IMG/VR virus record: IMGVR_UViG_3300025108_000066
Location: 1-53,970 of that record
Origin: a virus
Length of the DNA stretch: 53,970 nt
Strand: one strand, 5' to 3'
Below, one piece after another: positions 5,904 through 48,116 of this stretch. Under the pieces are notes generated by a model, which worked only from the letters and a program-made list of their open reading frames with translations, had not been told where the DNA came from and searched no databases. The position numbers and the translations under genes were made by a program. Positions within the stretch are counted from its first letter, which is position 1. Each line of letters begins with the position of its first letter.

Positions 5904-6647
5904 ATGACTACAAAAGTAACAACACCGAAAGGTGTAGCTAACTATCCTCACATCAGTAAGCCTGATGAAGGTAGAGAGTATTCTGATGGTAAGTATAAAG
6001 TTAATCTAGCTTTATCCCCTGAAGACGCTAAACCTATAGTAGAGCAAATCAATGCTGTATTACTTGAGGGTATCAAAGCTGTAAAAGGTAAAGAGCCAAA
6101 CAAAAAAATCAAACAGGCACCACTACCTTATGCAAATGAGACAGTAAAAGATGATGATGGTAACTCAGTAGAGACAGGCAACGTCATTATAAAATTTAAA
6201 TCTAAGTATAAACCTCAAGTGTTTGACTGTGATAACAATGAGATATTTGAGCACAACATATGGGGTGGCTCAGTAATTAAAGTAGGTGGTGAACTTGCAT
6301 TCTATAGCTCTGCTATAGGTTGTGGTGTAACCATAAGACTTAAAGCTGTTCAACTTATCGAGTACGTACAAGGTGGAAGTGGGGCTGATAGCTTTGGCTT
6401 TGGAAAAGAAGATGGCTTTACTGCTGAATCCGATGAGACTGCAAACACACAGGAAGAGGTTGACATAAGTGTTAACGTCCCCGCTTCTGCAGCAGAAGTT
6501 GCACCTGCACCTGTTAAACCTAAAGCTAAAGCTAAACCTAAAGCTAAACCAGTTCCTGTTGAAGAGCCTGCACCAGTTGCAGTAGCTACAGAGAGCAGTA
6601 GTCTAGCAGATGAGATAGCTAATTTAATAGGAGAGACTGATGACTAA
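5904..6647 (+). CDS. Probable single-stranded DNA-binding protein (DUF2815-like)
   Basis: 247 residues. The N-terminal 160 residues resemble phage DUF2815-type single-stranded DNA-binding proteins: a beta-rich OB-like region beginning TPKGVANYPHISKPDEG, with conserved-looking IIKFKSKYKPQVFD and IWGGSVIKVGGEL segments. A low-complexity linker follows, with repeated KAKPKAKP and Ala/Pro/Val, and the protein ends in an acidic tail (IGETDD), the typical protein-recruiting tip of ssDNA-binding proteins. GGAGG precedes the ATG. It lies in the replication operon directly before an HTH protein and the primase-helicase. Confidence 0.82.
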   Translation: MTTKVTTPKGVANYPHISKPDEGREYSDGKYKVNLALSPEDAKPIVEQINAVLLEGIKAVKGKEPNKKIKQAPLPYANETVKDDDGNSVETGNVIIKFKSKYKPQVFDCDNNEIFEHNIWGGSVIKVGGELAFYSSAIGCGVTIRLKAVQLIEYVQGGSGADSFGFGKEDGFTAESDETANTQEEVDISVNVPASAAEVAPAPVKPKAKAKPKAKPVPVEEPAPVAVATESSSLADEIANLIGETDD

Positions 6648-6924
6648 CAGAGCTCCACTAGACTTTAAAAAAGTTGAAGCTCTGAGACGGCACATGCTAC
6701 TTACAACAAGTAATATGTCCGAGTTATTAAGTGTATCCCGCATGACATACTACGGATGGATTAAAGGAAAACCTGTCCGTAGGAAAAATCATGATAGAGT
6801 TATTAGCACTCTAAGAATCTTACTGAAAGCTATGGAGAATGGATGGCCTCAGCCTAACATTATTGCATTGGAACAGAAGGATAGATTCAAAGAGCTCCTT
6901 GAGCTTTTAAATAAAAAGGAATAG
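6640..6924 (+). CDS. Small helix-turn-helix DNA-binding protein
   Basis: 94 residues. The central segment, about residues 20-55 (LLTTSNMSELLSVSRMTYYGWIKGKPVR), fits a helix-turn-helix of the XRE/phage regulator kind, followed by helical sequence. Its ATG overlaps the end of the ssDNA-binding gene. It may regulate the primase-helicase or recognise an origin. It is the only clear HTH regulator in the genome, yet it is not placed beside an integrase or immunity region, so a lysogeny repressor role is unlikely. Confidence 0.75.
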   Translation: MTNRAPLDFKKVEALRRHMLLTTSNMSELLSVSRMTYYGWIKGKPVRRKNHDRVISTLRILLKAMENGWPQPNIIALEQKDRFKELLELLNKKE

Positions 6925-6986
6925 TATAAATAGAGGTGGCTGGTTTGACACTCCCAATCAGTCGCCGCATAAAGAAAGGTAATCAA

Positions 6987-9848
6987 ATGAATATGTTGGA
7001 ATTTTTCCAGCAAGTTTTACCGACAGAAGGATTTTACGTAACCACAGTTATTAATACTGATGGTAGGAAACAAGGATTTTTTAAATCGGTAGACGAGCTG
7101 GCGACGGTGTGTGAAAGATTGGATAAAACCAATAACAACACCTATTTTGCTATCTCTGCATTCAAGCAGAAGGGCAACAGGAAACAGGATAACGTACGAG
7201 CTACTAAAGTTATAGCTATAGACGTAGACTGTGGACCTACTAAACCATACCCATCTTGGAAAGAAGGGCTATCAGCACTAGGTAAATTTGTAGCTGAGAT
7301 GGGCTTACCTAAGCCTATGATTATACACTCAGGTAATGGACTGCATGTGTACTGGATACTAGAGAAAGAACTAGCACCTGAAGATTGGAGACCCCTAGCC
7401 GAGGCTATGAAACAAGCGGCTATAGATAAAGAATTTAAAATTGACGCAGGACTTACAGCGAATAGTGCACTAGTACTAAGACCTATAGGTACACACAATC
7501 CAAAGAACGGTAACGAAGTCAAACTACTAGTACCATCTAAACCTATTGACAACATGGTGATACAAGAACGTCTGTCTTATTACTACCGTAGAGCTGCAGA
7601 TGCAGATACTAGCTCATCACAAGACAACTCGTTGTTGTCTAATTTAGTTAGCAATCAAGAGTATCAACCAGCTGTTGGCTCTATTGTTGCTACTAAATGT
7701 AAGCAGATAGAATGGGCTATAGCTAATCAAGACCAAGTAGATGAGCCGTTATGGTACGGTATGATAGGAGTAGCCGCATTCTGTACTGACCCTGAGAACA
7801 CAGCAATACAGTGGTCTAAAGGACACAGTAGATACAATAAAGAAGCTACTATAAATAAACTTGTACAGTGGAGAGAGTCTGCTTCAGGTCCAGCTACATG
7901 CTCTAAGTTTGAAACAGATAGACCCAACGGCTGTAAGGGTTGTAAGTACAAGGGTAAGATAGGCTCACCAGCTAGACTAGGTGTGCAATATCAAGAAGCT
8001 CCTGTAGTTAAAGAAGCTCCTGATACATTGGCTAACTCAGTACCTATGCCTAAACCATTTAAAAGAACTAAAGAAGGTATAAAGCTAACTCTAGATGATA
8101 CAGATATAGATGTATGTAAGTTTGATATATACCCTGTAGCGTATGGCTTTGATGAATCATTAGGATATGAGACAGTAAGGTATCATTGGAACAGACCTCA
8201 TATGGGGTGGCAAGAACTTGTACTAAGGCAAGCTTACCTTACTGATGGTAATCGTGAATTTCCTAGTGCTATAGCAGACCAAGGCATAGTACTTTACAAT
8301 AAGAAACAAACGGAGTATTTTCAACTTATGTTAAGAACTTACATGGATGAATTGAGACAGATTCGTACAATGACTAACCTGTATTCTACTATGGGTTGGA
8401 AGGAACATAACAAATCATTTATCTTAGGCAACACTATACTCAGACGTAAAGATGATGGGGAAGTTACAGAGGAGAAGATTAATCTAGCTTCGGTTGTATC
8501 TAAGAGTAGTACAGATATGTTTAGTACCAAAGGCTCATTACAACAGTGGGTTAATCTTACATCTGTAATGGAGAAAGCTAACTTAAAATCTCATATGTTT
8601 GTACTAGGTGTAGGATTCTCAGCACCACTATATAATTTTACAGGACTAAAAGGATTAACAGTATCACTATACGGACCAACAGGTGGTGGTAAAACATTGT
8701 CTCAATACTGGGCACAGTCTATATATGGTAATCCTGATAAGCTACACTTCGCAGCCAAGTACACACAGAACAGTTTGTTCTCACGTCTTGGTACATACGC
8801 TAACCTGCCGCTAACCATAGATGAAGTAACTATGATGAACGATAAAGAAGTCGGAGACTTCTGCTACTGGGTATCACAAGGGCGTGATAAAGCTAGACTT
8901 AATAGAAACTCAGAAGAACGTGACGCTAAGACATGGGCTACACCAGTTATAGTATCCACCAACAAGTCCTTACAAAGTAAACTAATTGCTTCTGGTTTAG
9001 ATACAGACGCACAGATGGCTAGGTTGTTAGAGGTAACAGTCCCTTCATCACCTGTGTTTACTAGAGATACTAACGTAGGTAAAAAGATTTACGACGCAAT
9101 CCATTCTAACTATGGTGAAGCTGGCAAAGTATTTGTTAGGAAGTTACTTGAGATGGGAGAAGAAGGAATCCAATCTGCTATAGCAGAAGCTACAGCTAAC
9201 TTCCATAAGAAGTACAAAGCTAAGTTTAGTGGGGAAGAAAGATACTGGGAGCAATCTATTATACTTGCTGACCTATCTATGAGCCTAGCTAAAGAGTGGG
9301 GTCTAATAAACTTTGAGTATGAACAATCTACTGAATGGGTACTAGCACAGATAGGTGCGATACGCAGGTCAGTACAAGAGAATCAAGTAGACGCATTTGA
9401 TTTAGTTGCAGAGTACATGGCTGATTCAGCTGATACATCTGTTACTGTCATGCATACCATAGGTCAGAAGTCATTACCTGATTTCTCTAGAATACCAAGA
9501 GGAGATATAAGAATAAGATTAGATGTGTATCGTAAGTCTGCGATAGAATCATTTGATAAAGGTACCATGATGGTAGACCGAACTCACTTTAGGAAGTGGT
9601 TGTCTGTACGTGGTGCTGACTATAAGACATTCAAACAAGAACTTGTTGATGAGAATGTGATTGCTACTCCTAGGTCAGAGAAAGCTTCACTAGGTAAAGA
9701 TACTCCAGTCAAACTAGCACAGACATATGTCATTGGATTTAATCTTACTCACCCTAGATTTCAAAGCCTACTAGAAAATGCTGATGTAGAAGCTGATGAC
9801 CTATCATATGGACAATTACAGGTTATTGACAAAAAAGAAGACTCCTGA
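6987..9848 (+). CDS. Primase-helicase (archaeo-eukaryotic primase-like domain plus DUF927-type ATPase)
   Basis: Large replication protein of 953 residues. The N-terminal part has primase/PrimPol-like features: AIDVDCG (near 77-83), HSGNGLHVYW (near 114) and an Arg-containing LRPIGTHNPK. A Cys-rich knot (CSKFETDRPNGCKGCKYKGK) near 310 may bind zinc. The C-terminal half has an SF3/DUF927-like ATPase with Walker A GPTGGGKT (near 563), acidic LTIDEV and sensor VIVSTN. I prefer the ATG at 6987, preceded by AAAGG, over the in-frame GTG at 6936, which would add 17 residues across the intergenic space. It is the last gene before the convergent terminator. Confidence 0.9.
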   Translation: MNMLEFFQQVLPTEGFYVTTVINTDGRKQGFFKSVDELATVCERLDKTNNNTYFAISAFKQKGNRKQDNVRATKVIAIDVDCGPTKPYPSWKEGLSALGKFVAEMGLPKPMIIHSGNGLHVYWILEKELAPEDWRPLAEAMKQAAIDKEFKIDAGLTANSALVLRPIGTHNPKNGNEVKLLVPSKPIDNMVIQERLSYYYRRAADADTSSSQDNSLLSNLVSNQEYQPAVGSIVATKCKQIEWAIANQDQVDEPLWYGMIGVAAFCTDPENTAIQWSKGHSRYNKEATINKLVQWRESASGPATCSKFETDRPNGCKGCKYKGKIGSPARLGVQYQEAPVVKEAPDTLANSVPMPKPFKRTKEGIKLTLDDTDIDVCKFDIYPVAYGFDESLGYETVRYHWNRPHMGWQELVLRQAYLTDGNREFPSAIADQGIVLYNKKQTEYFQLMLRTYMDELRQIRTMTNLYSTMGWKEHNKSFILGNTILRRKDDGEVTEEKINLASVVSKSSTDMFSTKGSLQQWVNLTSVMEKANLKSHMFVLGVGFSAPLYNFTGLKGLTVSLYGPTGGGKTLSQYWAQSIYGNPDKLHFAAKYTQNSLFSRLGTYANLPLTIDEVTMMNDKEVGDFCYWVSQGRDKARLNRNSEERDAKTWATPVIVSTNKSLQSKLIASGLDTDAQMARLLEVTVPSSPVFTRDTNVGKKIYDAIHSNYGEAGKVFVRKLLEMGEEGIQSAIAEATANFHKKYKAKFSGEERYWEQSIILADLSMSLAKEWGLINFEYEQSTEWVLAQIGAIRRSVQENQVDAFDLVAEYMADSADTSVTVMHTIGQKSLPDFSRIPRGDIRIRLDVYRKSAIESFDKGTMMVDRTHFRKWLSVRGADYKTFKQELVDENVIATPRSEKASLGKDTPVKLAQTYVIGFNLTHPRFQSLLENADVEADDLSYGQLQVIDKKEDS

Positions 9849-30800: not shown

Positions 30801-31721
30801 TTATCCCTCTAATGTTGTTACTCTAGATTGTAAGTCTTCTATTACTGCTTGTTGTTCTTGTATTGTTTTGACCAATAAAGGTACAAGTTTGCTTTGGTCG
30901 ATTCCTTGCATTTGTTCAGCATCTTTAGTTCCTATTATAGCTTCAGGTACTATGCTTGATACTTCGTGTGCAATAAATCCATCTAATTCTGTGTTTGTAT
31001 CATCTGCTATCCAATTAAATCTGCATGGTTTGAGTTGCTTTAATCTTGCTGTTGCATCAAATGTATAATCTACATTTTCTTTTAGTCTATAATCAGATGA
31101 AGTGCTATATGTGGTTGATGAGCCACTTACTGTAACTGCTCCTGCACTTGTCGAATCACTTGAATAAAATCTTATAGCATCATTATTTGCATAACATCTT
31201 ATTTCCATACCATTTTGATTTGTAGCATCTGATTTTATACATACAAAAGAATTATTTCTTTCAACAGTTGTGCCAATATAAACCTGTCCAACACCATTAA
31301 CTTTCATTCTATCAGAGCCACCTGTTTTGAAATCTATTTCATCATCTGTGTCAGCAGTAATACTAGTATCACCATCAGCATCTAATACTAACTCAGCACC
31401 ATTGAGGTCTCGAGCCTCTGCTTGTATATCTTCAAAAAGTTTAGCTACAGGTCTAAGCTCAAACCTATCACCTGTACTAAATGCTCTAGCTGAAGTATTA
31501 TCTTGTGCTCTGACTACAGTTAAAGAGTCAGTAGACCTAGCTGTAACCTTAACAATCTCAAGATTGTTTGAAGTATCTATAAGGGTTCCATAAAAATAGT
31601 TACCAGTAGTTAGAGTAGGAAATCTAGCTCCTTCACCAGAAGCTAATGCAACAGTTGTAGCAGAGTCATTTATACCTGATGCTAATGTACTAAATCCGTT
31701 ATTTGTAATTTTAACTGTCAT
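30801..31721 (-). CDS. Tail fibre/tailspike with C-terminal S74 chaperone (second copy)
   Basis: 306 residues. The N-terminal domain (about 1-110, ASGINDSATTVALASG) attaches to or assembles on the tail. A beta-rich middle follows, then an intramolecular chaperone of peptidase family S74, with the autocleavage Ser-Lys pair five residues apart in SDYRLK. The C-terminal end is a coiled coil that would be released. It is paralogous to the gene just upstream at 31,733-33,139 and shorter in the middle, so the receptor-binding part differs. Confidence 0.85.
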   Translation of the reverse strand: MTVKITNNGFSTLASGINDSATTVALASGEGARFPTLTTGNYFYGTLIDTSNNLEIVKVTARSTDSLTVVRAQDNTSARAFSTGDRFELRPVAKLFEDIQAEARDLNGAELVLDADGDTSITADTDDEIDFKTGGSDRMKVNGVGQVYIGTTVERNNSFVCIKSDATNQNGMEIRCYANNDAIRFYSSDSTSAGAVTVSGSSTTYSTSSDYRLKENVDYTFDATARLKQLKPCRFNWIADDTNTELDGFIAHEVSSIVPEAIIGTKDAEQMQGIDQSKLVPLLVKTIQEQQAVIEDLQSRVTTLEG

Positions 31722-31732
31722 AATCTATTAAT

Positions 31733-33139
31733 TTATCCTTCTAGTGCTGTAATTCTTGCTTCTAATTCTTGTATTGTTTTAACTAATAGTGGAACAAGTT
31801 TTGCTTGGTCTATTTGTTGCATAACAGGTATATCACTCATACTTGCAGACCATGTAGTATCATTTGCATAATTTCCATCTGCTTTATCTTTTGTCCATTC
31901 TGCTTCTGTTACACCCTCTGAATTGAAAGTTCCATCGGCATTTTTAACAACATTGGTTGCTGTTCTTGTAGCATCTTTAGTTCCTATTATAGCTTCAGGT
32001 ACTATGCTTGATACTTCATGTGCAATAAATCCATCTACTGTTTTATCTGCATCTACAATAAAATTAAATCTTGCAGGTTTTAATTGTTTTAATCTTGTTG
32101 TTGCATCAAATGTATAATCTACATTTTCTTTTAATCTATAATCTGATGATGTTGCATAAGTTGTGCTTGATGCTGATGTCGATATACTACCACCACTAGC
32201 CCCATCTTTATGAAAGACAACGACAATACCATCACTTGATAATCTATTTATAACTATAGGTTCCATACCATCTGCAATAAATTCAGCAGCACCTGCTTTT
32301 GTGCCTAAATCGTTAAAACAAATACCTGCAGTTCCAAAGTTATTAGTATTTTTATTAAATAATATTTCACCTGAACTATTAATTCTCATTCTTTCTGTAT
32401 TGCTTGATGTTGTAGCACTACTGCCTTTAGTGAATATAAGAGCATTATCTGAGTTTATGTAAGTATGCTCAAATGTGCTTGTATCGTTGGTTACTCTAGG
32501 AACACCTCTTATCCATAAACCTGCTTGTGTACCTGATGAGCCAGAGCCATGCATTTTTACATTCACTCCACTAGCAGTTGTTATATCGGTTGTAGTGATA
32601 GACATTCTATCTGTGCCACCTGTTTTAAAATCTATTTGGTCATCGGTATCTGCCGTAATTGAAGTGTCTGCATCAGCATCGAGTATCAATTCTGCTCCGT
32701 TTAAATCTAAAGCTCCCCCAAAAGAGGGTGCTGTAATATTTCCTGAAGATTGAATAGTACCTGTAATATTAATATTACCTGTACCTGTAATATCATTTGA
32801 GTTTAATCCTAGGTCTGACCCTAGTGCAGATATTTGAGTTGAAACATCTAATAAAGATTGTGCAGTAATTCTAAGTTCTATTCTATCACCAACAGCAAAT
32901 GCTCTAGCTGAAGTGCTTTCTTGTGCACGAGTAACAGTTAATACATCAGATGACCGTGCAGTACATTTAGCAATCTCTAAATTATTTGATGCGTCTATAA
33001 GAGTTACAAAAAAATACTCACTGCCTGTTAAAGATGGGAATAAAGCTCCGTCCCCAGATGCTACAGTTATACTAGTAACAGAGTCATTTATACCTGAAGC
33101 TAGTGTAGATACTGCGTTATTCGCAAATTTTACTGGCAT
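31733..33139 (-). CDS. Tail fibre/tailspike with C-terminal S74 chaperone (first copy)
   Basis: 468 residues, with the same N-terminal domain and S74 end as its downstream paralogue but a longer middle and an insertion near residue 400. The S74 motif is SDYRLKENV; cleavage before this Ser after trimerisation is the known behaviour of the family. The shared parts include DADADTSITADTDDQIDFKTGG. The two adjacent fibre genes could give alternative receptor binding. Confidence 0.86.
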   Translation of the reverse strand: MPVKFANNAVSTLASGINDSVTSITVASGDGALFPSLTGSEYFFVTLIDASNNLEIAKCTARSSDVLTVTRAQESTSARAFAVGDRIELRITAQSLLDVSTQISALGSDLGLNSNDITGTGNINITGTIQSSGNITAPSFGGALDLNGAELILDADADTSITADTDDQIDFKTGGTDRMSITTTDITTASGVNVKMHGSGSSGTQAGLWIRGVPRVTNDTSTFEHTYINSDNALIFTKGSSATTSSNTERMRINSSGEILFNKNTNNFGTAGICFNDLGTKAGAAEFIADGMEPIVINRLSSDGIVVVFHKDGASGGSISTSASSTTYATSSDYRLKENVDYTFDATTRLKQLKPARFNFIVDADKTVDGFIAHEVSSIVPEAIIGTKDATRTATNVVKNADGTFNSEGVTEAEWTKDKADGNYANDTTWSASMSDIPVMQQIDQAKLVPLLVKTIQELEARITALEG

Positions 33140-43614: not shown

Positions 43615-43904
43615 TATATTTCCTCCAATAGAATTACATAATACTGTGTAGGCTTTTTCTTATGCCTAATAATCCTTGTCATGTAAGACATACTATTTTC
43701 TCGTAGGACATTAACAATGTTGTCATACTCAGCAAGTGTGTCAACCCTTGCCTCGTTTGTCTCATCAAATTTATTTAGCGTTCTTAATAGCAGCTGGTCT
43801 GTCTTCGGTATAGTCCTCTGCGTCAATAACGGTTGTTGGGTGTTCTTGCCCCCCGAGATTAATCGTAATTTTAACTCCTCCACTAGCATCCTCCGTGTTT
43901 GCAT
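43614..43904 (-). CDS. Possible overlapping hypothetical protein, 96 aa
   Basis: This frame begins within the 3' end of the probable terminase small subunit gene and continues past it, with about 134 bases of overlap. The first ATG lacks a clear ribosome site, and no in-frame ATG exists near the upstream stop. Support comes from its stop overlapping the next ATG and its end carrying that gene's GGAGG. Alternatives are a +1 frameshift extension of the upstream protein or a non-coding remainder. Confidence 0.35.
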   Translation of the reverse strand: MQTRRMLVEELKLRLISGGKNTQQPLLTQRTIPKTDQLLLRTLNKFDETNEARVDTLAEYDNIVNVLRENSMSYMTRIIRHKKKPTQYYVILLEEI

Positions 43905-44370
43905 TACTGGTCTCTAGCCCACCCCATTTGACAGTGGACTTAATTAAATCTGCTTTAACTGCTGAAGATGTTTCAGGGCTATGTATCATAGTCCAACTTG
44001 TAGTGAGTAGTTCTTCTGCTTGTGCTCGAGCCTTGAGTTTAAACGTCATACCCTTTTCTACAATCTCAGCTCTGTAAGATTCTACTTTCTTTAGGTATAC
44101 GCTGTCTTTGTTGAATTTAGTTAAGTCATCAATACTGATGTGGTGTCTAACTCTAAGCTCATCTAGGGTTTCACCTGAGCCTTCTAGCAACAATGCCATA
44201 TCGAAAGCTAGACGGTCAGACCACTTGGTGTGTCTTAATGGTAGTGTATCCATGAGTTCAAACCTATTGTATTTCAACGGATATGTCAAGATGGGTGCCC
44301 AAACTTTACATCTTTGTTTTTTGGCTCTTGTTATGAGAGGTTTACTTATATGGGGGGCAGGTGTCGGCAC
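43771..44370 (-). CDS. terS: Probable terminase small subunit
   Basis: 199 residues from a GTG at 44,370; an ATG at 44,253 (MDTLPLRHTKW) with AATAGG upstream would give 160 residues and is also plausible. The middle is helical with an HTH-like segment (LDELRVRHHISIDDLTKFN) and coiled part, as in small terminases. The C-terminal end (GGVKITINLGGQ) is a common TerS tail pattern in marine phages. It is the first leftward gene, facing the rightward accessory region across about 165 bp. Confidence 0.72.
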   Translation of the reverse strand: MPTPAPHISKPLITRAKKQRCKVWAPILTYPLKYNRFELMDTLPLRHTKWSDRLAFDMALLLEGSGETLDELRVRHHISIDDLTKFNKDSVYLKKVESYRAEIVEKGMTFKLKARAQAEELLTTSWTMIHSPETSSAVKADLIKSTVKWGGLETSNANTEDASGGVKITINLGGQEHPTTVIDAEDYTEDRPAAIKNAK

Positions 44371-44450
44371 GCAGTCCGACTACCCTCCCTGTGCCACTTA
44401 ATAAATTTACTATCTTATTTCTAATAGGCTACAGCCCTTTAAAATCAAGC

Positions 44451-44491
44451 GAGCAGAAATTATTTTTAGATGTGTCAGGGTTTAATCATGG
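44451..44491 (+). promoter_or_regulatory. Bipartite motif, copy A
   Basis: GAGCAGAAA, 11 bases, then TGTGTCA (44,451-44,477), continuing GGGTTT...CATGG. The following start codon is 58 bases downstream. Exact spacing is kept in three copies, and copies A and B share the extended CATGG end. It may be a promoter or operator for the rightward unit; orientation and the recognising protein are not known. Confidence 0.6.
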
Positions 44492-44535
44492 AAAGCACAA
44501 GCTGACCAAGAACGAAAATCATAGGAGTAAAAACT

Positions 44536-44949
44536 ATGGAAGAAAATAAAAAAGACAACATAGTCTTATCTGAAAACAGAGTAAGGTTATACGTTGGCTT
44601 AAAAGGTGGAGCTCAACATGTTTTGAGAGTTACCGACAGCGAACAGTACGAGGACAGGTATAATTGGTACCTACCTACTGAAGCTAAAAAACTATTAGCC
44701 CATGTTATGAAAATAACAGCTAAAGGCTCAAAAGTAATGGTTGGCTACAAAGGCAAACCAATATCAGCCGAAGGCATGGTATTCGATAGCATCTACACAG
44801 ATGAAGTCGAGAAAAACAAAGGTGAGCTATATATTGGCTACTTCATGATAGGGACTCGAAAACGAGGTCTTCAAATCAGAAGAGCTTCTAATGGAACTGA
44901 AGGGGAGTTTAACCCTAGAGGGTCTACTAGAGATATAGACATAGTATAA
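44536..44949 (+). CDS. Hypothetical protein, 137 aa, first rightward unit
   Basis: First gene after motif copy A, with the ribosome site ATAGGAG before its ATG. It has a mixed sequence with GLKGGAQHVLRVTDSEQY near the start and several Tyr/Gly-rich beta segments (GELYIGYFMIG). No named family is recognised. The early position beside a conserved control motif makes a host-takeover or regulatory role possible, but this is inference. Confidence 0.75.
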   Translation: MEENKKDNIVLSENRVRLYVGLKGGAQHVLRVTDSEQYEDRYNWYLPTEAKKLLAHVMKITAKGSKVMVGYKGKPISAEGMVFDSIYTDEVEKNKGELYIGYFMIGTRKRGLQIRRASNGTEGEFNPRGSTRDIDIV

Positions 44950-44958
44950 CAACCAAGT

Positions 44959-44980
44959 CCTCCTCCCGAAAGGGAGGGGG
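44959..44980 (+). other. GC-rich hairpin with GAAA tetraloop before a small gene
   Basis: A nine-pair stem (one G-U pair) closes on a GAAA tetraloop and is followed immediately by CAGGAG, the ribosome site of the 49-residue gene. It could be a transcript-stabilising or translation-control element rather than a terminator, because no T run follows. Confidence 0.6.
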
Positions 44981-44991
44981 CAGGAGTAAAA

Positions 44992-45141
44992 ATGAGTGTA
45001 TATAAACATATTAAAGTACATTACTTTGATAGAAACCAACCTAAAGTGAGAACATTTGATAATGCATTAGAAGCTAACTTGTTTATCAAGTTCCCACCAC
45101 AAGACATAAGAATAGTTAGCTGGATTCCACTATCTAACTAA
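44992..45141 (+). CDS. Hypothetical protein, 49 aa
   Basis: Starts after CAGGAG. The sequence includes YKHIKVHYFDRNQPK and TFDNALEANLFIKF, suggesting a small folded protein with beta and helix segments. It is the last gene of the first rightward unit, followed after 20 bases by a strong terminator. No family is recognised. Confidence 0.65.
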   Translation: MSVYKHIKVHYFDRNQPKVRTFDNALEANLFIKFPPQDIRIVSWIPLSN

Positions 45142-45161
45142 CTAGCCTACCTACCTACCTA

Positions 45162-45193
45162 CCCTCACTCAATCGAGTGGGGGTTTCTTTTTG
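45162..45193 (+). terminator. Rho-independent terminator of the first rightward unit
   Basis: A nine-pair stem (CCCTCACTC with GAGTGGGGG, one G-U), loop AATC, followed by TTTCTTTTT. It ends the transcript led by motif copy A. Four CCTA repeats precede it. Confidence 0.88.
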
Positions 45194-45196
45194 TCT

Positions 45197-45218
45197 ATCA
45201 AATCGTTTACGATTTGAT
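45197..45218. terminator. Second hairpin, possibly bidirectional terminator
   Basis: A perfect nine-pair stem ATCAAATCG/CGATTTGAT with a TTTA loop directly follows the T run of the first terminator. It may back up termination or protect the start of the structured stretch to its right. Confidence 0.6.
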
Positions 45219-45270
45219 TATATCATAACTTTACATAGATATCACTAACTTTACATACACATAGATATAT

Positions 45271-45304
45271 AATCAATAGGTTCTAGTAATCAATAGGTTC
45301 TAGA
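45271..45304. repeat. 17-bp direct tandem repeat
   Basis: AATCAATAGGTTCTAG occurs at 45,271-45,286 and again at 45,288-45,303, one base apart. The core CAATAGGTT recurs at 46,972-46,980, and GTTCTAGTAAT (45,280-45,290) recurs inverted at 46,949-46,959 in the second gene-free stretch, which links the two regions. Confidence 0.85.
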
Positions 45305-45502
45305 ATGTCGGAAGGTTAAAGTAGTATATATATATAAACCATTGGTCGGTAGGTTATGGCACGTATAATGCAACTATATAGACTATCTAGTTGTAACTTT
45401 ACGCAACTTTACATGTTCTAGATAGTAAAACCTTACACATGTAACCTTACATTCCCTTAGTTTACGCCATATATAGGGCATTATGCTATCCATAACTATC
45501 TA

Positions 45503-45620
45503 AACTATCTAGACTATCTAGTTATTTTAATATAATGCGTCACTAAGCGTTTACATCTAGCAATATACTAAATTTCGCAGCGATACATTACCCATAAAAA
45601 ACTAGATAAACTAGATAGTT
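45503..45620. repeat. 21-bp inverted repeat with CTAG-rich arms
   Basis: The arms are 45,503-45,523 (two CTATCTAG copies in a row) and 45,600-45,620, inverted with two mismatches, separated by 76 bases. Each arm contains direct repeats of its own, so several alternative pairings or protein sites are possible. Confidence 0.8.
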
Positions 45621-45710
45621 AATGCCAACTTGTTGATATATATAAAGTTTTACTATCTAGTTACACACCCATTAAGATAACTTTACATAGATAGTTATAT
45701 ACACAATGCC

Positions 45711-45751
45711 GAGCAGAAAAAAATTTTCGATGTGTCAAGGTTTTGGCATGG
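45711..45751 (+). promoter_or_regulatory. Bipartite motif, copy B
   Basis: GAGCAGAAA, 11 bases, TGTGTCA (45,711-45,737), then AGGTTTTGGCATGG. It shares GCC before and CATGG after with other copies. The next start codon is 76 bases downstream. The flanking ATGCC/GGCAT could close a hairpin around the whole motif in this copy. Confidence 0.6.
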
Positions 45752-45813
45752 CGAGGGATTTCCCCTTGTTATATATAATATTAACTATCGCCCTATGGGG
45801 CAGGATATAAACT

Positions 45814-46191
45814 ATGAACGACAATGTAAAAGAGTATGTAAGGTGGAAACCTATAATCAAAAAAGGGAATGCTACTAAAGGCATTAATGCTGGCGACTTG
45901 CACATTAAAGTTGTTGAGTGTGATAAAAAACACCCTAAAGCAATGTGTACTGACAATGTTATGGCTATTGTAACTAAAGGTCTTAACGCTATTGGTAAAC
46001 TTGTTGGTGGCAAAGAGATACTAGCTATGGACTTCTCTGACAGAGAGAAAGAGAGACACATTGAGGATAAGCATAAAGTGTGGTCTATCCAACGCTCTGG
46101 AAAGTGGGGTAAAGAGTTGTATTTATCCTTTACTGTACCATCAAGTAACAGTAATGCACTTGATGATGAGTTTGATATAGATAATCTATAA
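45814..46191 (+). CDS. Hypothetical protein, 125 aa, second rightward unit
   Basis: First gene after motif copy B, with CAGGAT before its ATG and a small GCCC/GGGC hairpin just upstream. The N-terminal half includes MVARWK-like basic segments (VRWKPIIKKGNATKG), and the middle DFSDREKERHIEDKHKVW. The C-terminal end is acidic (DDEFDIDNL). No family is recognised; an early regulatory or host-interaction role is possible. Confidence 0.72.
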   Translation: MNDNVKEYVRWKPIIKKGNATKGINAGDLHIKVVECDKKHPKAMCTDNVMAIVTKGLNAIGKLVGGKEILAMDFSDREKERHIEDKHKVWSIQRSGKWGKELYLSFTVPSSNSNALDDEFDIDNL

Positions 46192-46212
46192 TCATCTTAC
46201 AACAACTTGTGG

Positions 46213-46237
46213 TATCCCTAGTGATGTACTAGGGATA
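46213..46237 (+). other. Intergenic hairpin, possible weak terminator
   Basis: A perfect ten-pair stem TATCCCTAGT/ACTAGGGATA with a GATGT loop separates the 125-residue gene from the small zinc-ribbon gene. Only TTT follows, so partial termination or message processing is more likely than a full stop. Confidence 0.65.
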
Positions 46238-46258
46238 TCCTTTATGAGAGGTATAAAT

Positions 46259-46459
46259 ATGGCTAGATGTAGAGACTGTAATGTTATTATACAACAAGGT
46301 AGAGTATCACTAGGCTACGATACATGCCTAGTTTGTGGTGAGGTTGAGGCACGTAAGGTTAAGCATACTGTGGTGCCATTGCATAAGTCTAACTACATAG
46401 TAGTGAGCAATAAAGAGGACTTGAAAGGAATTAATAACAAAGGTGGTAAACATGACTGA
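46259..46459 (+). CDS. Small zinc-ribbon protein, 66 aa
   Basis: Starts at ATG 46,259 with GAGAGG upstream; an in-frame ATG at 46,244 is inside the ribosome-site region and less likely. Cys4-x2-Cys7 and Cys23-x2-Cys26 make a compact zinc ribbon. The rest is basic and ends GGKHD. Such short ribbons are common in phage early regions and may bind nucleic acid or a host protein. Its stop overlaps the next ATG by eight bases. Confidence 0.75.
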   Translation: MARCRDCNVIIQQGRVSLGYDTCLVCGEVEARKVKHTVVPLHKSNYIVVSNKEDLKGINNKGGKHD

Positions 46460-46667
46460 TGATATACAAGAGGTTACTGTACACATAGCAGTAATACAAA
46501 ATGGTACTGTGCATATGTATTGGAACACTAGATTCTATGTACATGATAGTGAGGGCGTATTAGATAAGGCATTAGAGTTTGTCAAAAGGCAAGGACACAA
46601 TCAAGAACAATGCAGTTGGGCAATAGTAGGTAGCCTTATTGAAAGGCATAATGAATATATGGGTTAA
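46452..46667 (+). CDS. Hypothetical protein, 71 aa
   Basis: The ATG at 46,452 has AAAGGTGG upstream; the GTG at 46,443 is less likely. The sequence has a beta start (EVTVHIAVIQNGTVHMYW) and helical rest (LDKALEFVKRQG). No family is recognised. It is the last gene before the second gene-free stretch, whose first stem begins at its stop codon. Confidence 0.68.
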   Translation: MTDDIQEVTVHIAVIQNGTVHMYWNTRFYVHDSEGVLDKALEFVKRQGHNQEQCSWAIVGSLIERHNEYMG

Positions 46668-47028
46668 CTTGTGATTATGAGACACAAGTGTGGGGTAGGT
46701 AGTGGCAAAGTAGGGTATAATAAATATACGGATTTAATTCCAAAATCCCACGCCTACCTACCTCTAATGAATATTTCTCAATGAGTAATTAGTACTCAAG
46801 CTTATTGGGAGCATAGATGTAAGCTAGCGTATACATCTATGTAGGGTAGATAGCTAGATGGTTGGTGATTCTTAGTCCATGAAAGCCAACATAAAGACTA
46901 CCAAGATGACTATGTATGGAGCAAAACTAGTCTATCTATCCTTAATGAATTACTAGAACGAAATCACCTAGCAATAGGTTGGAGATAGGTAACGCTGTAT
47001 CGTTCCAGCATGTAGGTTACTTATCTCT
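46667..47028 (+). ncRNA. Candidate large structured RNA
   Basis: No open frame is convincing, but the whole stretch can be read as a chain of helices. These are: ACTTGTG/CACAAGT (46,667-46,689); GGTAGGTAG/CTACCTACC (46,694-46,762) enclosing two adjoining hairpins (46,715-46,729 and 46,730-46,748); a bulged 12-pair helix (46,776-46,810); CATAGATGT/ACATCTATG (46,812-46,841); a 15-pair stem with two single bulges (46,843-46,943); ACCTA-GCAA-TAGGT with a GNRA loop (46,966-46,979); and a 13-pair plus 4-pair stem (46,981-47,028). G-U pairs occur in several helices, which favours RNA over a DNA site. The strand is inferred from neighbours. Confidence 0.6.
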
Positions 47029-47040
47029 AAGGACTATGCC

Positions 47041-47067
47041 GAGCAGAAATTTTTTTCGGTTGTGTCA
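47041..47067 (+). promoter_or_regulatory. Bipartite motif, copy C
   Basis: GAGCAGAAA, 11 bases, TGTGTCA, preceded by GCC. The start of the MoxR gene lies 59 bases further on, after a short CCCAC/GTGGG hairpin and an ATAGGAG ribosome site nearly the same as that after copy A. It leads the long accessory operon. Confidence 0.6.
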
Positions 47068-47126
47068 AAATCAAACAAGAATTTCCCACAATGTCGTGGG
47101 GATATAACAACACATAGGAGAAAACT

Positions 47127-48116
47127 ATGAGAGCGAAACTACTTATGCAAACCCTAAAGGACTTGTTTAAGATAAAGAGGACAGTAGCTATCGAGGGTAG
47201 CCCTGGGGGTGGTAAGACTACCATATGCCAACAGGTTGCCAAAGAGCTAGGTGTCGGATACGAAGAAGTGCATATGCCAACCATGTTGGTAGAGGACTTC
47301 GGTATTCCTATACCTCAGCCTGATGGCTCACTTAAATATTCCATACCACATTGGATACCCGTAGTGGGTAGCGACCACCCTGATACAGGTATATTGGTAC
47401 TTGATGACATGAATCAAGCTAGTGCTGACTTACAGAAAGTGGTAGCTAACATGTGTCAAGCAAGGAATGTACATGGCTATCAAATCAAAGAGGGGTGGCA
47501 GATTGTATCAACAGGTAACAAGGTGTCGGACAGAGCTGGTGCTAATCGTGTATTGTCTCACTTACGTAACAGGCATACTGTGTATGACTTAGAGACACAC
47601 GTTGATGATTGGTATGCATGGGCTATTGAACACAATGTAAAGCCTGAAGTCATCTCATTCATCAAGTTCAGAACGGACTTGTTGCATGACTTTGACCCAC
47701 AAAGAGAGTCTAACCCTACACCACGTTCATGGGTAGAGGGTGTGTCTAATGCAATAGGTGTCGTATCACCTGAGGCAGAGTATGAGACATTCAAAGGTGC
47801 TGTCGGTGAGGGTGCTAGTGCAGAGTTCACAGGGTTTGTGAAGATATATCGTAACCTACCTGATATGGAACAGGTCATTAAGAAACCACTTGAGGCTACT
47901 GTGCCTACTGACCCAGCTACATTGTATGCAATGTCTGGCAGTCTAGCTACGTACTCAACAGTGGATAACTTCAAGAATGTACTGACATATCTAGACAGGA
48001 TACCCCCTGAGTTTTCAGTACTGTCGGTATCGTATGCAGTCAAGAAGAATGTCGAGCTGATGAACACACCTGAGTTCACTAAGTGGGCAGTCGATAAGCA
48101 GAATGTAATTATATAA
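47127..48116 (+). CDS. MoxR-type AAA+ ATPase
   Basis: 329 residues. Walker A is GSPGGGKT (24-31) and Walker B ILVLDD (89-94). Sensor 1 is in VSTGN near residue 130, followed by NRVLSHLRNR with the arginine-finger region. This is the MoxR/AAA_5 branch, whose members act as chaperone-like remodelers with VWA-domain partners. The third gene in the same operon is a VWA protein, supporting a working pair. The target could be a phage or host complex; it is not visible in sequence. Confidence 0.9.
   Translation: MRAKLLMQTLKDLFKIKRTVAIEGSPGGGKTTICQQVAKELGVGYEEVHMPTMLVEDFGIPIPQPDGSLKYSIPHWIPVVGSDHPDTGILVLDDMNQASADLQKVVANMCQARNVHGYQIKEGWQIVSTGNKVSDRAGANRVLSHLRNRHTVYDLETHVDDWYAWAIEHNVKPEVISFIKFRTDLLHDFDPQRESNPTPRSWVEGVSNAIGVVSPEAEYETFKGAVGEGASAEFTGFVKIYRNLPDMEQVIKKPLEATVPTDPATLYAMSGSLATYSTVDNFKNVLTYLDRIPPEFSVLSVSYAVKKNVELMNTPEFTKWAVDKQNVII

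Follow-up and report, generated by a model that had tools for sequence, protein, structure and literature searches.

A conserved array of TATCTA repeats as a candidate iteron-type replication origin in an uncultured group of tailed phages

In the DNA of a marine bacterial virus we found a gene-free interval, some 350 bases long, with an array of TATCTA repeats which is probably the replication origin of the phage and, judging from its sequence, of the iteron type. An earlier note on this DNA had offered three readings, namely a large RNA, an iteron-bearing replication origin or a partition-like site. The second is the best supported of the three by sequence, although the origin role itself is something that we infer. 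Because the same word recurs about ten times at fixed distances and is kept in dozens of related viruses, an origin is likelier than a structured RNA.

The element lies in a 53,970-base virus record (the whole stretch analysed, hereafter the window), the ends of which share 99 bases at 98% identity. The record is that of a tailed phage and encodes an SU10-type portal protein, adaptors and a large terminase (TerL). Its other products include a 970-aa DUF927 protein, a family-A DNA polymerase, a PD-(D/E)XK nuclease, an SNF2-type helicase and a gp2.5/Enc34-type ssDNA-binding protein. Genes of the + strand run rightward from 44.4 kb, via the record end, up to 9.85 kb, while those between 9.9 and 44.4 kb are mostly on the - strand. 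The element is located just right of the strand switch, beyond a pair of short ORFs on the + strand and the terminator-like hairpin (45161-45184, + strand) that closes the small operon on its left. The flanking genes 44536-44949 and 45814-46191 gave no family match, and in tblastn they matched near-identical loci only. Other small genes flank the element in the relatives, in many of them a FEGNVS/YEGNV pair, alike by eye. Another interval free of genes, roughly 460 bases long (46668-47126), which contains CCTACCTAC-like words, precedes the gene at 47127-48116, labelled MoxR from the annotations of distant matches. Elsewhere in the window, positions 30801-33139 encode two adjacent proteins with S74 endosialidase-chaperone domains, with repeated DNA between them, probably duplicated tail-fibre genes.

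The earlier note had described 45219-45710 as a gene-free region between a terminator and a control motif, rich in inverted repeats and repeated words, and most of this description stands. No ORF of at least 50 aa overlaps the region, which is flanked by the hairpin at 45161-45184 and by a CGAGCAGAAA..TGTGTCA motif at 45710. The 21-bp inverted repeat with two mismatches was recovered (arms 45503-45523 and 45600-45620), along with further pairs of arms at 45418-45440/45638-45660 (20 of 23 pairs), 45372-45392/45600-45620 (18 of 21) and 45609-45622/45649-45662 (13 of 14). As for the repeated words, CTATCTAG is present seven times in the window, six of them in the region, with a chance expectation of 3.0 for the whole window, and exact AACTTTACAT eight times, four of them in the region. 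The word [CG]TATCTA occurs seven times in 45335-45692 (358 bp); in 20,000 Markov-1 simulations of this stretch it averaged 0.28 occurrences and never exceeded 4, and in 20,000 random 358-bp samples taken elsewhere in the genome it never exceeded 3. The repeats are far above chance. Counted as the bare core, TATCTA is found nine times in 45339-45693 (five forward, four reversed), together with one degenerate TATATA in register, and the stems reported earlier arise because this one word recurs in both orientations. The boundaries of the region held in part: the repeats do lie within 45219-45710, but the widely conserved portion comprises only about 45339-45693. The remaining left part, 45219-45338, contains a 17-bp tandem repeat and two AACTTTACATA copies, and has no counterpart in 13 aligned relatives.

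The conserved element starts with a G-box, CCATTGGTCGGTAGGTT (45339-45355, + strand), in which the portion at window 45346-45353 reads TCGGGGGG in 34 of 36 aligned copies and TCGGTAGG in the window and L096. The distance from the G-box to site 1 varies from 29 to 109 bp, and one relative (L137) has a second G-box copy adjoining site 1. The iterons follow: set 1-2 on the + strand (45375-45389; degenerate TATATA at 45375, TATCTA at 45384), iteron 2r in the opposite orientation (45419-45424, - strand), and set 3, three tandem copies with a 9-bp period (45497-45520, + strand). Across an 82-bp spacer (45521-45602) set 3 is opposed by set 4, two tandem copies with a 9-bp period in the opposite orientation (45603-45617, - strand), and the array ends with iteron 5 (45654-45659, + strand) and iteron 6 (45688-45693, - strand), which reads TAGATA in the window. 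Among the 36 copies, TATCTA is retained at site 1 in 30 and at site 2 in all; site 2r is TAGATA in 31; the three copies of set 3 are TATCTA in 35, 36 and 26, the two of set 4 are TAGATA in 30 and 31, and site 5 is TATCTA in 25.

The cores also keep almost constant distances from one another. Sites 1 and 2 are 7, 8 or 9 bp apart (6, 10 and 20 copies), 2 and 2r 35 bp (24 copies) or 36 bp (12), 2r and 3 78 bp (33) or 79 bp (3), and 4b and 5 42 bp (23), 43 bp (7) or 44 bp (6). The tandem period within sets 3 and 4 is 9 bp in all 36, and the first cores of the two sets are 106-109 bp apart in 35 and 118 bp apart in L093. An alignment can favour even spacing; the anchors used here are exact words. 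An apparent two-class spacing of sets 3 and 4 proved to be an artefact of degenerate first copies. The aligned copies thus show the element to be a conserved DNA scaffold, and near-fixed spacing of hexamers is what a nucleoprotein scaffold would select.

Conservation was followed in several collections. A large-terminase search matched 598 stretches, of which 80 were retained for use, and the interval bounded by the putative small terminase and the gene at 46244 could be excised in 46 loci (the window itself and five near-identical loci included). In all 15 intervals inspected (14 relatives), a gene-free gap with visibly homologous sequence is present at the same place. A profile of the element copies matched 116 of 150 sequences, contig duplicates and partial copies included. 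The exact DNA pattern (set 3, 68-98 bases, set 4) was detected in 71 IMG/VR phage contigs; on recount, 71 of 76 places have a total length of 114-117 and 5 of 106-108, where 91-121 was allowed. Among 65 newly fetched pattern loci, 44 are flanked by terminase genes and, on the opposite side, by early genes, 20 revealed one flank only, and in one, a short contig, neither flank was seen. The six relatives read through in pieces, out of 13 chosen records of 49-57 kb, each have a single dominant cluster of [CG]TATCTA, with 7-8 sites within 360 bp, positioned between TerL and MoxR. When 44400-46600 was compared with 50,697 phage records by blastn, no match was obtained, and no paper on the element was among the matches listed in the literature search. 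The set of 36 copies was obtained from 107 loci, reduced to 34 by removal of near-copies (at least 95% identity), with L048 and L046 added by hand and L068 lengthened; nine loci had been skipped, five by pattern (L048, L046, L141, L047, L110) and four as incomplete (L039, L136, L098, L052), and L160 and L169 were left out of alignment A2.

A large structured RNA was among the options of the earlier note, and ROOL and GOLLD are examples of such large structured RNAs. That the element is an RNA of this sort, or a structured leader, is suggested by its inverted repeats and intergenic position, yet this reading is largely contradicted by the homologs and we consider it hardly tenable. RNAalifold on the 36 non-redundant homologs returned 2 pairs at -0.45 kcal/mol, with 0 compensated, and bases beside the sites vary largely without compensation; the covariation analysis proposed earlier, run on this set, did not yield conserved helices with compensatory changes. 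Of the pairs in the 21-bp stem, those within the TATCTA cores hold in 20-36 of the 36 copies and those outside them in 14-33, with C-C at one outside pair in 18. The stem pairs in 79.8% of cells compared with 78.6% in shuffles (reached by 26 of 500) and 22-39% in slid versions. This high pairing results from the hexamers being repeated in opposite orientation, which accounts for most, not provably all, of it. Five pairs changed on both sides compared with 6.1 in shuffles, and the ten further standard pair types were equalled or exceeded in each of the 500 shuffles. On the other side, 25 doubly changed cells remain paired (reached by 9 of 500 shuffles) and the covariation score was reached by 27 of 500; the numbers leaning towards pairing come mostly from one pair right beside a core (AU 19, GC 11, GU 3). 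An excess over shuffles can also arise among related sequences that have no structure at all. Rfam gave no match at gathering score, and below it only CRISPR-DR44 (E 0.63). As judged from these comparisons, the element is a DNA site with almost no conserved RNA fold. The earlier note had named relatives without the arms as grounds for giving up the feature; the relatives do keep it, though in the form of DNA repeats rather than RNA arms.

We next consider what, besides the iterons, points to an origin. According to nearest-neighbour energies, the 120-bp window with the lowest stability anywhere in the record (45217-45336) adjoins the element on the left as a candidate unwinding flank, a stretch without counterpart in the 13 relatives, and the third least stable non-overlapping one (45582-45701) covers its right end. 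In six relatives, the least stable 120-bp window located from -500 to +900 bp of the cluster start ranks 4, 2, 5, 1, 1 and 1, so that in these and in the window one of the five least stable stretches is in or beside the element. The spacer of the window itself is not exceptionally unstable, as 15% of 80-bp windows are less stable. The cumulative GC-skew minimum, another check proposed earlier, was found about 1.3 kb from the element in the window and, at 500-base resolution, 0.1-1.3 kb from the cluster start in 5 of 6 relatives, with G010 at 6 kb; this evidence is weak because the gene strand switches at the same place and confounds it. The GC skew of + strand DNA is higher to the right of the element in 24 of 28 loci, window included (means 0.150 and 0.073), and the difference is reversed in L009, L018, L022 and L043; this comparison is a partial control, as the compared genes are not homologous and the loci are related.

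Two proteins of the phage are candidates for binding the iterons. The first is the 970-aa PrimPol-like/DUF927 helicase protein (6936-9848, + strand), a candidate initiator, whose gene is about 15 kb from the element across the joined record ends if the record is circular; gene and element occupy separate places in six relatives as well. The protein was detected in all 13 chosen records, although in 5 of them the matched gene stretch is divided between the record ends or has between one and three stop codons in it, and the element accompanies it in each of the 12 that were searched for it, all but G005 (in G002 in two parts at the ends). Its middle part matches DUF927 in all 19 aligned members. 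With NCBIfam SCCmet_Cch1 it gave 2.5e-15 and 56 bits, far under the cut-off of 700, and its only PDB profile matches are 5dgk (SCCmec Cch, 6.3e-10) and 8tch (1.5e-07). In Foldseek, 5dgk ranked first (E 2.4e-07), with 8tch, named SaPIbov1 Rep, above the 0.001 line (E 1.9e-03), and the N-terminal part was placed beside the S-2L PrimPol 6zp9 (2.0e-05). As the TM-scores of the Cch and SaPIbov1 Rep matches are at most 0.30, the helicase kinship is based mainly on sequence. The model is poor (mean pLDDT 55, residues 808-970 under 50) and, for this reason, the C-terminal DNA-binding domain is regarded as putative.

The second candidate is a 94-aa HTH-like protein (6640-6924, + strand), encoded by a gene that ends 11 bases upstream of the 970-aa gene, an arrangement conserved in relatives. 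It was found in 61 of 82 searched sequences, duplicates and pieces without that region included. Residues R34, M35, T36, Y37 and W40 do not vary among 25 aligned members and lie within the predicted recognition helix of a confident HTH-like model (mean pLDDT 87.5). Foldseek gave no match at E of at most 0.001, VIA-align gave Z of at most 7.4, and the HTH and excisionase matches in Pfam and NCBIfam are all below cut-off; these weak structural and family matches limit the label to "HTH-like". That both the TATCTA word and this recognition helix are near-invariant is suggestive only of a link between them.

The same protein can be accommodated in a different reading, an operator or enhancer array, in which the 94-aa Cro/XRE-like HTH protein or another regulator would bind TATCTA cooperatively and control the flanking promoters, with no origin involved. 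The conservation of the protein beside the primase gene, its predicted HTH-like fold and invariant recognition-helix residues agree with this, as does the promoter/leader-like motif (45710-45743, + strand) which adjoins the right side of the element before the next gene. Yet the array extends over more than 300 bp with near-fixed long spacings and lies among the least stable DNA of the genome, which is beyond the needs of a simple operator; 190 bp separate the end of set 3 from the promoter-like motif, and the promoter-like sequences vary among the printed relatives, whereas the array does not. We therefore consider an operator array unlikely. The motif itself has copies at 44450, 45710 and 47040, each upstream of a + strand gene, and several printed relatives have -35-like sequences of the AACTTGACA type at the corresponding places.

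Under the replication origin reading, the phage's own initiator would bind the iterons, either the PrimPol-like/DUF927 helicase (6936-9848), by means of its C-terminal part, or, as a recruiter, the 94-aa HTH protein encoded upstream. Two assemblies of the helicase would be set head to head by the opposed iteron sets; the AT-rich DNA would then melt, the helicase would load and the PrimPol-like domain would prime. The family-A polymerase and the gp2.5-type ssDNA-binding protein would then copy outward bidirectionally, along the two divergent gene arms. A more specific and decidedly tentative version is that a small Cro-like HTH protein reads the rigid TATCTA scaffold and passes the melted origin, located about 15 kb from the operon of that protein, to a DUF927 (Cch/SaPI Rep-type) helicase joined to a PrimPol-like domain, with the near-invariant G-box as a separate module, e.g., a primer or R-loop start. 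Among the papers matched in the literature search, we did not meet a two-part origin system of HTH protein and PrimPol-like/DUF927 helicase.

A packaging site (pac- or cos-like) for the small terminase would also be expected close to terminase genes, where the element is located in relatives, and this reading depends on the gene at 43771-44370, starting about 1 kb to the left, being that terminase. The cos sites of lambda-like phages also carry terminase-binding repeats. Moreover, the 53,165-base record G002 opens inside the element, and its ends (L039, L098) each hold a part, which may be chance or may reflect a hard-to-assemble or cut site. In turn, the small terminase label was given by position alone, the sole family match being a PHROG of unknown function, and two + strand ORFs and the terminator-like site separate this gene from the element. 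The records of six relatives open 4.7-51.5 kb from the element, which argues against a fixed cut there.

A distant relative, Pseudomonas phage Rollin (OR577172), with TerL 43% and DUF927 protein 26% identical to those of the window, bears on the same question. Ten of the 17 AAGGTAG words in its record lie between 61264 and 495, forming a cluster of AAAAGGTAGYAA with inverted partner(s) and no annotated gene, about 6 kb from the TerL gene; positions 1-1454 contain no ORF of more than 79 aa. As in the window, the cluster is positioned between the - and + strand arms, but the repeat word differs (AAAAGGTAGYAA), and the small ORF beside the Rollin primase has no detectable homology to the 94-aa protein. 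The Rollin record is called partial and describes no function for the cluster. By analogy, the position of this different inverted-repeat cluster would fit an origin better than a packaging site, and a packaging role for the element appears quite improbable.

Arrays of direct and inverted repeats occur in partition, recombination and resolution sites too, and the 94-aa protein has a sub-threshold excisionase/transposase-like match. Nevertheless, no ParA/ParB, integrase or resolvase match was found in the 43 ORFs scanned (of 57 listed), and the exact site pattern is absent from a collection that represents each of 84,980 bacterial and archaeal species by one genome. The partition-like site of the earlier note is thus left without positive support, and we see very little probability in a partition, attP-like recombination or dimer-resolution site.

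The closest parallels to the candidate origin are found in staphylococcal islands and cassettes. According to a figure legend in PMC6092414, PICI origins always comprise two sets of iterons flanking an AT-rich region, and PMC7581432 describes recognition of the origin iterons by the C-terminal domain of SaPI Rep. The PICI layout, with an AT-rich stretch between two sets of short iterons, resembles that of the element, where sets 3 and 4 are opposed across 82 bp and unstable DNA is in or beside it. A Rep-like helicase is encoded on the same replicon as well (sequence match to 8tch), its homologous helicase region belonging to the candidate initiator, where it is joined to a primase-like domain. 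The SaPI/PICI origin is directly 3' of rep, whereas about 15 kb separate the element from the candidate initiator gene; because it is not next to a rep gene, the element was not classed as a SaPI/PICI origin. It also differs in having extra outlying iterons and a G-box, and in its presence in a tailed-phage genome. By analogy, we infer that it may work like a SaPI/PICI origin.

The putative SCCmec origin of Cch2, as presented in PMC7581432, is of a shared type: intergenic, conserved and equipped with short direct repeats needed for binding of a self-loading helicase. It has three AAGTG repeats, in contrast to about ten TATCTA sites in two orientations here, and Cch2 belongs to a helicase family other than the DUF927 type. 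The PLE RepA origin is likewise a noncoding iteron origin in a phage-related replicon, but PMC7145576 describes a RepA_N initiator, semi-palindromic repeats and no predicted primase or helicase activity for RepA. The iteron sequence and layout of the element also differ from those of the phage P4 and lambda origins. In these phages iterons are read by a phage initiator, the alpha protein at P4 ori/crr and the O protein at lambda ori; P4 alpha is a primase-helicase, and the lambda iterons lie inside the initiator gene.

If the element is an origin, an uncultured phage group represented by many metagenome contigs gains a defined origin and a candidate initiator, both testable without a host. If true, this would extend the origin logic of staphylococcal islands and cassettes to tailed phages, and the near-fixed scaffold would allow the positioning of a self-loading DUF927 helicase to be tested precisely.
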